From: Terriglobales bacterium
GTDB taxonomy: Bacteria > Acidobacteriota > Terriglobia > Terriglobales > Acidobacteriaceae
NCBI GenBank assembly: GCA_025936825.1
Contig: JAICSO010000001.1
Coordinates: 372,001-436,000, forward strand
Direction: 5' to 3'
Length of the DNA stretch: 64,000 bases
Each line of letters begins with the position of its first letter. The stretch's first letter is position 1. The translations under genes and the position numbers were made by a program. Below, piece after piece: positions 41,650-43,623 of this stretch. The notes beneath the pieces were generated by a model. It saw only the letters and a list, made by a program, of their open reading frames with translations, had not been told where the DNA came from and did no database searches.

Positions 41650-41985
41650 ATGGATAACGTTACTCTGATCAGAGTGGTCGCGGGAGTTCTGGCAGCCGGG
41701 GTCTTTCTTCTGCCCTTATATGTTTTACCCACCATCCTGGGTTGGAGGAAAAAGCAACGGATACCGATTTTGTTAGTGAACCTGCTTTTGGGGTGGACCG
41801 TGGTTGGCTGGGTTGGAGCGCTGATCTGGGCGCTCGCCGACACCCCCATGCAATTAAGTCAGCCCGGCGCCGTCGCGGCATTTTGTCCAAACTGTGGAGG
41901 GCACATGCCGGCTGGCGGCCATTTCTGTTCCATGTGTGGACATTCTGCAACCGAAGCCGTGAAAGCTCAGACCACAGCTTCATAG
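41650..41985 (+). CDS. Superinfection immunity-like membrane protein with zinc ribbon
   Basis: 111 residues: a helix at about 5-28, YVLPTILGWRKKQRIPILLVNLLLGWTVVGWVGALIWAL, which is the signature of the Imm_superinfect family (phage superinfection immunity proteins of the T4 Imm type), and a C-terminal zinc ribbon CPNCGGHMPAGGHFCSMCG. In bacteria such proteins occur widely outside prophages, so a phage role should not be assumed. It is probably a small inner-membrane protein with a cytosolic metal-binding tail. No phage genes are nearby. Confidence 0.8.
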   Translation: MDNVTLIRVVAGVLAAGVFLLPLYVLPTILGWRKKQRIPILLVNLLLGWTVVGWVGALIWALADTPMQLSQPGAVAAFCPNCGGHMPAGGHFCSMCGHSATEAVKAQTTAS

Positions 41986-42027: not shown

Positions 42028-42672
42028 CTACTCAATCACTATTACGGCGATCCGCATCCCCGGATGATACGCGTCGTAAAGGTAGTACTGATCATCGACG
42101 TCGTCGTAATCGATGTAGCAGTCATCGGAGTACGCCCAGTCAACAGGCCAGGCGTCGATTAACTGAAATGAATAGCCGCCGTACAGGATGACAGGCTGGC
42201 GCTGGTTGTAGATTCTGTCGCGATCCACGTGGAAATGATGTTCGCGTCCGAAGCTGGCGCGGAACCGCTCCTGCGGAATGCGAGCTCCGTGACCTCGTTC
42301 GTGCATTGGTCGCTGATTGCCTTGTTGCGCGTACCCGCCATTGTGCTGCCCCTGGTACGTGCCTGAAGGGCGCGCTTCTTCGTGATTGTCACGACGATCG
42401 TTGTTCTGACGGTTCTCATTTTGGCGGGCGTCGCGGTCATTCGGACGCTGCTCCCTTTGTTCTGGACGTGCTTCTCTTTGGTCACGCCTGGTTTGGTCCT
42501 GATCCATTGCGCGGCCTTGATCACGATCCTTGTCTTTGTCTTTACCCTGGGCTTGATCTCTGTCCCTGTCGCGCGCTTGTTGAGAGTGGTCGTCGGCCTG
42601 CGGAAACGCAGGCACAGACATAACCATGAACATGAACAGGAGCGCCGCTGTAAAAGCAGCAAAATATCTCAT
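42028..42672 (-). CDS. Secreted low-complexity Asp/Arg/Gln-rich protein with conserved C-terminus
   Basis: 214 residues. Signal peptide (MRYFAAFTAALLFMFMVMSVPAFPQA), then about 90 residues of repeated Arg/Asp/Gln/Lys words (RDRDQAQGKDKDKDRDQ) that should be disordered, followed by a structured C-terminus (FGREHHFHVDRDRIYNQRQPVILYGGYSFQLIDAWP; YSDDCYIDYDDVDDQYYLYDAYHPGMRIAVIVIE). I recognise no characterised family. The acidic C-terminus is envelope-like. An AAGGAG-like site (AGGAGAAT) precedes the ATG at 42672. Confidence 0.65.
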   Translation of the reverse strand: MRYFAAFTAALLFMFMVMSVPAFPQADDHSQQARDRDRDQAQGKDKDKDRDQGRAMDQDQTRRDQREARPEQREQRPNDRDARQNENRQNNDRRDNHEEARPSGTYQGQHNGGYAQQGNQRPMHERGHGARIPQERFRASFGREHHFHVDRDRIYNQRQPVILYGGYSFQLIDAWPVDWAYSDDCYIDYDDVDDQYYLYDAYHPGMRIAVIVIE

Positions 42673-42863: not shown

Positions 42864-43418
42864 CTACGGGTTTGAGGACAGCGCGGGCTTGTAAAGCTCG
42901 TCGCTACCCACGTCAAAGACGCGGTTTAGGCGGGCGCGAAAATTTTCAAAGGCAATTTGCGCCGACAATTCCATGAGCTGCTCTTCGGGAAACTGGGCAC
43001 GCAAACGACCATAAAGTTCGTCGGAAATATTTGCGGGGGTTGCGACCATGGCGTCGGCTAGGTCGACGACGAGACGTTCGGTGTCAGTGAGGATGCTGAG
43101 ATTGCCTCCACACACTGCCAATAGCTTTTCATCGCTCAGCCCAGCTTTTCTGCCCACGGCAGAATTGATATCTACTCAAAAGGGACAACCAATGCGCGAC
43201 GCTGTCCTCACCTTCGCAAGTTGCGAGTAGCGTAAGGAGACCCGGCGCTTGCGCGAGAGGCCTGCCTCCATGGCGATAGTTCCCCAGATCATTCCGGGCA
43301 AACGCATTTGCATCTTGGCCGGCGTGAGTTCTTTTCCAAACATCTTGCGCATTACGCGGTAGAACCAGCGTAAATGCCAAGGGGCTTCATGCTTCTCAAT
43401 CGGGGTCAGACGGGCCAC
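42864..43418 (-). CDS. Candidate selenoprotein: AhpD/carboxymuconolactone decarboxylase-like CxxU protein
   Basis: 184 residues if the in-frame TGA at 43176-43178 is read as selenocysteine. Start GTG 43418 has GAGG 9 bases upstream. The frame reads HLRWFYRVMRKMFGKELTPAK, LPGMIWGTIAMEAGLSRKRR, then KVRTASRIGCPF-TGA-VDINSAVGRKAGLSDEKLLAVCGGN and LIDLADAM-type sequence to the stop at 42864, in a single uninterrupted frame apart from the TGA. The TGA falls at the second cysteine of the family motif C-x-x-C (C78-P-F-U81), which is the redox pair of AhpD-type peroxidase partners. A SECIS-like hairpin follows (see 43148-43164). Without Sec the frame would end at residue 80. Enzymes of this fold act as thiol peroxidase/disulfide components. 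Genome-wide selA/B/C/D would decide it. Confidence 0.75.
43148..43164 (-). promoter_or_regulatory. Candidate bacterial SECIS hairpin downstream of the in-frame TGA
   Basis: On the minus strand the arm TTCTGCC (43164-43158) pairs perfectly with GGCAGAA (43154-43148) around a GTG triloop (43157-43155). The apical loop begins 18 bases after the TGA (43178-43176) and starts with G. Bacterial SECIS elements are known to need a stem with a 3-14 base loop, a G among the first two loop bases, and 16-37 bases between UGA and loop. All three are met. Confidence 0.65.
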
Positions 43419-43623
43419 GGTTCAACCTCGCGAGTGACTAACATATATCGATGAGAGAAACCGGTAAGAAGAAGTATGACGGCTGTTCTGATTTCGTAAC
43501 AAAAATGAAGTAGTAAACAGCTAGGGAAGATCTGTGCTCCAGACTGGCTGCAAAGCCGGCGAGAGCAGTCTGCGATTCTTGTCCACATGGGTAGAACGCT
43601 CCGCCCATTCCAGTGGGGTGGCA

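Follow-up and report, generated by a model that had tools for sequence, protein, structure and literature searches.

The window (the whole stretch of 64,000 nt of DNA that was analysed) carries on its minus strand a single open reading frame of 184 codons plus a stop, which begins with a GTG at 43418, closes with a TAG that ends at 42864, and contains exactly one internal stop, a TGA at codon 81 (Table 1). The sequence and its translation bear out on this point a preliminary description of the DNA, which had reported a frame intact from GTG to stop apart from one TGA. The translated context of the TGA reads ...RIGCPF-U-VDINSAVGRKAGLSDEKL... (GCPFUVDINSAVGRK, with U for the TGA), and the related genes discussed below start at or near the equivalent position, most of them with ATG. 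Without selenocysteine (Sec) decoding, two frames of 80 and 97 codons result, the second opening at a GTG at 43157. The next frame downstream (42028-42672, minus strand) encodes 214 residues very rich in Asp, Arg and Gln, with no match in Pfam, and further on a small protein encoded on the plus strand (41650-41985) has a Pfam "superinfection immunity" domain joined to a weak zinc-ribbon match. A promoter and terminator scan gave no signal above chance, and no conserved operon was seen when the loci of ten relatives were viewed by eye.

Table 1. Features of the putative selenoprotein gene, in window coordinates
Feature	Position	Strand	Basis
CDS, AhpD/CMD-like selenoprotein, predicted Sec at codon 81	42864..43418	-	sequence, translation, Pfam, alignment
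In-frame TGA, predicted to be read as Sec, U81 of the C78-P-F-U81 motif	43176..43178	-	comparison of 67 loci
Predicted bSECIS hairpin, UUCUGCC / loop GUG / GGCAGAA	43148..43164	-	folding, conservation, covariation
TGT, Cys78, first residue of CxxU	43185..43187	-	invariant across the 50-row alignment
GAGG, putative Shine-Dalgarno-like sequence, 7 nt upstream of the GTG start	43426..43429	-	sequence reading

Eleven nucleotides after the TGA, UUCUGCC (43164-43158) pairs with GGCAGAA (43154-43148) in a perfect 7-bp stem of -8.3 kcal/mol, closed by a GUG loop (43157-43155) that begins 18 nt past the TGA. The limits set for bacterial SECIS elements (bSECIS) in the available text of one catalogue (PMC13188914) are a loop of 3-9 nt with G among its first two positions, a stem of 4-16 bp, a distance of 16-37 nt after the UGA and a dG of -7.5 or lower; the hairpin lies within all of them, and its stem, loop and spacing are those given in the preliminary description. 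As a stand-alone proof the folding energy was rejected, because an equal or better bSECIS-type hairpin arose in 1793 of 20000 synonymous recodings (9%), and when the 49 nt around it were dinucleotide-shuffled 200 times, 40 of the results folded at least as stably. The earlier claim that TGA and hairpin together exceed chance thus holds once homologues are compared, and is weaker for the hairpin taken by itself.

The read-through protein scores 28.4 bits against the Pfam CMD family PF02627, above the gathering cut-off of 23. AlphaFold2, run on an alignment of 50 hand-picked rows from which near-copies were left out (A1) and with a Cys letter at position 81, predicts an all-helical structure (pLDDT 95.3) in which residue 78 stands directly before a helix of residues 79-91. 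The best folds in the PDB include 2prr, the debrominase Bmp8, 2pfx, 3lvy, 3c1l and 6k40, and the best profile matches include Atu0492, PA0269 and Bmp8. The AhpD-like proteins PA0269 (2o4d) and Atu0492 (2gmy) and the peroxidase-related proteins 2prr, 2pfx and 3c1l have the same fold (TMq 0.65-0.85) and a CxxC-type active site, whereas the window protein would have Sec for the second Cys, with Gln66 and Asn85 in place of the relay Glu and His. As described in the available text of PMC3141380, catalysis in AhpD and PA0269 uses a relay Glu-Cys-(His/Tyr)-Cys-His, of which both Cys and the His are invariant among the AhpD-like structures compared there. The corresponding positions in the window protein are Gln66, Cys78, Phe80, Sec81 and Asn85, which differ from the AhpD relay; since the relay Glu and His are replaced, the protein is not AhpD proper. 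The AhpD-family domain that had been claimed across both flanks of the TGA therefore stands as an AhpD/CMD-like fold, but with two of the AhpD proton-relay residues changed. At position +4 of the Sec, the 41 homologous loci with TGA at codon 81 have Asn (30), Gly (7) or His (4), and all 26 loci with a Cys codon have Asn. Selenols are less dependent on such a relay than thiols are; the Asn occurs in all the Cys homologues as well, so Sec is not the sole way of dispensing with the His.

The best NCBIfam match is NF053654 ("GroundWater_YciW", YciW-related (seleno)protein), which aligns over nearly its full length (2-178 and 1-178 of 179 positions) at 104.2 and 106.2 bits, below the curated cut-off of 310. 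All 50 members of A1 match this family; the nearest to it is a locus from Planctomycetota (L061, motif CVFU) with 274.5 bits, and since this is the best E-value among the 50, none of them reaches the cut-off. Against the peroxidase-related family TIGR01926 the window protein scores 22.4 bits, below the cut-off of 81.8. CxxU proteins of the AhpD-like (COG2128 YciW / TIGR01926) and CMD kinds are among the selenoproteins reported from the Sargasso Sea set in the available text of PMC1088965, and AhpD-like and CMD-like CxxU selenoproteins are also listed in the accessible parts of a 2022 catalogue (PMC9312934) and a 2026 catalogue (PMC13188914); compared by description and not by alignment, these families and the window protein alike combine a CxxU motif with a CMD/AhpD domain. 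AhpD/CMD-like CxxU selenoproteins have thus been on record since 2005 (the preliminary description, too, had called AhpD-like selenoproteins known), and the window gene is a new member of a Sec clade. That Acidobacteriota use Sec is known: the deep-Sep test set as given in the available text of PMC12013277 includes three selenoprotein genes of Occallatibacter riparius; among titles and opening lines of abstracts on Acidobacteriota selenoproteins, outside subscription journals, none described the clade of the window gene, and no publication joining any two of Bmp8, debrominase and AhpD was found among the accessible papers.

The product probably acts as a selenol peroxidase or as an oxidoreductase of selenosulfides, and it probably works in an AhpD-type selenol/thiol redox mode, though it is not AhpD proper. 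A selenoprotein that carries out reductive dehalogenation or some other redox reaction, and not peroxide reduction, is possible but rather unlikely. Bmp8 (6ohj, 6ohi), whose motif has Cys where Sec is predicted here, is alike in fold over its full length (TMq 0.78-0.79). By fold it ranks next after 2prr (TMq 0.79), by profile it comes fifth (E 7e-19), and the changes at the two proton-relay positions also favour such a reaction; set against this are the identity to Bmp8 of only 19-20% and the lack, in the ten loci viewed by eye, of a conserved neighbourhood suggesting halogenated substrates.

The genome to which the window belongs (6.54 Mb in 141 contigs, completeness 99.67) was searched for the Sec machinery. 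It has a tRNA-Sec with anticodon TCA, which scores 69 bits against a family cut-off of 47, a selA match that totals 552 bits in two joined pieces, and selD (347 bits; C14:169994-171010, read in L064). The selD gene is itself Sec-coded: its TGA lies in AGUASKLSP, and a hairpin of 7 bp with a GGC loop comes after it. Two further matches to the tRNA-Sec profile above cut-off were called tRNA-Ser and tRNA-Leu by ARAGORN, so that only the first is a tRNA-Sec. The gene for SelB was absent from the 141-contig assembly by the family profile, and the SelB of a sister species found no fragment of it either. Seven matches to the SelB profile are other GTPases: NCBIfam named four of them (EF-Tu, IF-2, LepA and TypA), and the other three were assigned by length and place only, one as an EF-Tu fragment and two as EF-G. 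selB is present in 47 of 61 genomes searched, including six of the seven other genomes of the same genus; among the four same-genus regions that were read, it adjoins purL and purF in three (G002, G003, G004) and lies by dnaG in the fourth (G006). Neither purL nor purF was found in the window genome, where the matches to them were weak and partial; purH is present, and so is dnaG in a different context. Because selB, purL and purF are all missing, one assembly gap of several kb is the likely cause and the simplest reading. SelB is called the signature of the Sec trait in the available text of PMC5029168, which argues for a gap rather than a loss. It is very unlikely that selB has truly been lost and that SelA-charged tRNA-Sec is delivered to this gene and to selD by another elongation factor, with the hairpin working without a classical SelB. 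The preliminary description had proposed a search for the selenium genes and had named their absence as evidence against Sec; selA, selC and selD were recovered, and that absence applies to selB alone, which is missing along with purL and purF.

A wider comparison took in 300 genomes, the window's own and its relatives; 51 of them have a match to the protein, and selA was present in 39 of the 41 genomes with a TGA-bearing match against 175 of the 259 without one (Fisher p 6e-5), the 41 including the window's own genome, one whose TGA is unplaced (G053) and one whose match comes from another AhpD-like family (G265). The two TGA-bearing genomes without a selA match are G050, which is 54% complete, and G149, which is called 100% complete and whose genus mate G105 has selA. 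No homologue was found at E 1e-10 in the seven same-genus genomes, so the gene is patchy in its distribution.

In all, 67 homologous loci could be placed at codon 81, 37 from the scan of genome contigs and 30 that were fetched. The codon is TGA in 41 of them and TGC or TGT in 26, and no other codon occurs, which agrees with the earlier placing of the TGA at the second Cys of the redox motif. The number of Cys homologues is biased, because the scan patterns included CPFCVDIN. The 41 TGA loci include the window itself (L088) and two contigs counted twice (L025/L091 and L026/L092), which leaves 38 distinct TGA relatives with identities of 34-75%, or 39 distinct sequences with the window. They come from the window's own class and order, from Verrucomicrobiota and in one case from Planctomycetota, two being recorded as Acidobacteria and Terriglobia; the Cys loci are mostly from Pseudomonadota; one comes from an Acidobacteriota MAG, and another is unplaced.

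The hairpin is conserved together with the TGA. All six pairs of its core, UCUGCC-GNN-GGCAGA, are present in 35 of the 41 TGA loci and five of six in the remaining six, against 0-4 of six pairs in the 26 Cys loci. The strict bSECIS rules (dG of -7.5 or lower) are passed by 35 of the 41 TGA loci versus 2 of the 26 Cys loci; five of the six TGA loci that fail fall short by 0.1 kcal/mol, and the sixth, L098, has no such hairpin by that test. In L110 the sequence has altered, yet at almost the same place it forms a stronger stem, closed by an AGGUGCG loop. The 7-pair helix is formed in 95.6% of cells across the 39 distinct TGA sequences, and 9 cells are changed on both sides, a number reached in none of 500 shuffles. 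With 11 further sequences added (50 in all), 94.3% of cells are paired and 17 carry changes on both sides, where shuffling gives 3.3 on average and again comes as high in none of 500 trials, and three pairs show changes on both sides, a modest result that 17 of 500 shuffles equalled. These shuffles ignore relatedness; the control of sliding the register, which allows for it, gave at most 58.9% of cells paired for the 50 sequences. RNAalifold, unprompted, returned the same helix minus its innermost pair.

At the level of codons, the 37 non-redundant TGA loci use TCT for 34 of 36 Ser, AGA for 34 of 36 Arg, GCC for 34 of 37 Ala and GGC for 32 of 33 Gly within the hairpin; at the conserved Gly at +12 they use GGC (18), GGA (10), GGG (7) and GGT (1). 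TCT and AGA are rare in four open reading frames of the window, where TCT makes up 8 of 148 codons for Ser and AGA 8 of 127 for Arg. When the window gene is compared with 13 near relatives, dN is 0.14-0.25 on either side of the TGA and dS is at least 1.4 or saturated. The hairpin codons are therefore nearly fixed against near-saturated synonymous sites, and purifying selection is similar before and after the TGA.

On this comparison the gene is very probably a bona fide CxxU selenoprotein gene in which UGA codon 81 is decoded as Sec; it is the 38 TGA relatives with a conserved hairpin, and not the hairpin alone, that decide for Sec. That the gene is instead a pseudogene, an AhpD-like gene that acquired a nonsense mutation or was misread in sequencing, is extremely improbable: one in-frame stop is present, a hairpin alone can arise by chance as the recodings illustrate, and two Verrucomicrobia copies (L032, L034) are frameshifted, but the identical TGA recurs in all the distinct relatives counted above, TAA or TAG stands at codon 81 in 0 of the 67 placed loci, and neither the selection on both sides nor the conserved hairpin is expected of such a gene. 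Hardly better is the prospect that the UGA is a true stop separating two genes, one for a protein of 80 residues and a second whose translation restarts at GTG 43157. That GTG does open a 97-codon frame; the stop, however, falls within the CxxC motif and at the start of a helix in a single domain fold, the Cys homologues continue straight through, no stop codon other than TGA is used, and the supposed restart codon is the hairpin loop, which is GTG in only 17 of the 37 non-redundant TGA loci and otherwise GGN, GTA, GTC or GCA. Least credible of all is a reading of the UGA as Trp by an altered code or a suppressor tRNA, under which the frame is likewise open, since the homologues align Cys and not Trp, a tRNA-Sec with UCA is present, and the sole tRNA-Trp seen in the parts scanned has CCA.

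We infer Sec insertion from the frame, the position of the TGA, its conservation, the covariation of the hairpin and the presence of selA, selC and selD. Under the Sec reading, codon 81 would be translated by tRNA-Sec(UCA), which SelA would charge with selenium supplied by SelD, itself apparently a selenoprotein, and SelB, its gene presumably inside the assembly gap, would deliver the Sec-tRNA while bound to the hairpin just downstream. The 184-residue product is predicted to fold into the all-helical AhpD/CMD-like structure, in which Cys78 and Sec81 would form a CxxU redox pair where a helix begins; Sec81 may attack a peroxide or disulfide, Cys78 may resolve the product as a selenosulfide, and a cellular dithiol may reduce the pair back. 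The most interesting trait of the gene is the frozen hairpin, which is conserved unusually well; because its core is nearly fixed amid near-saturated synonymous sites, it offers a good test case for sequence-specific as against structure-only recognition by SelB. The clade adds to the known selenoproteome a group, spread over Acidobacteriota, in which all placed members appear to use Sec, and gene callers without Sec support would split the gene at the TGA.

A tree of 63 of the proteins, from which the frameshifted L032 and L034 and the short L108 and L059 were left out, separates the Sec rows (38) from the Cys rows (25) by one branch with support 99/99; it implies one Sec/Cys change, in a tree that has no outgroup and in which L061 is a long branch. 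The Verrucomicrobia rows are nested within rows of the window's family, and three of these loci (L030, L031, L033) have a similar downstream frame in common, with a gluconokinase in L031. Together the nesting and the common frame suggest transfer rather than misbinned contigs, and the Sec gene has apparently passed to Verrucomicrobiota from the Acidobacteriota clade. The two frameshifted Verrucomicrobia copies (L032:3001-3551 and L034:3001-3459) retain the TGA and the hairpin, the frameshifts reflecting either decay or assembly error.

A later set of 20 further loci was fetched, of which 16 matched across codon 81 (13 with TGA and 3 with Cys), two (L142, L143) had no usable match and two (L147, L148) did not cover the codon. 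Eleven of the 13 TGA loci are members of the family, and none of these has fewer than five of the six core pairs. The other two (L144 and L145, from G224 and G265) have an AhpD-like frame with a TGA in a CxYU-LNSH motif and lack a hairpin of the window type; they are probably selenoproteins of a different AhpD-like family that occurs in relatives of the window genome. In L148 (G164:C69) the match is limited to about the first 52-55 residues (69-71% identity) with a TAG in frame, and the locus is probably a decayed copy. Downstream of the homologue in genome G085 lies a CRISPR-like array (L090:2155-3313), with repeats such as GCTAGGGTTGGCCGAGATTCACCGCTCAAGTACACT spaced 66 nt from start to start.
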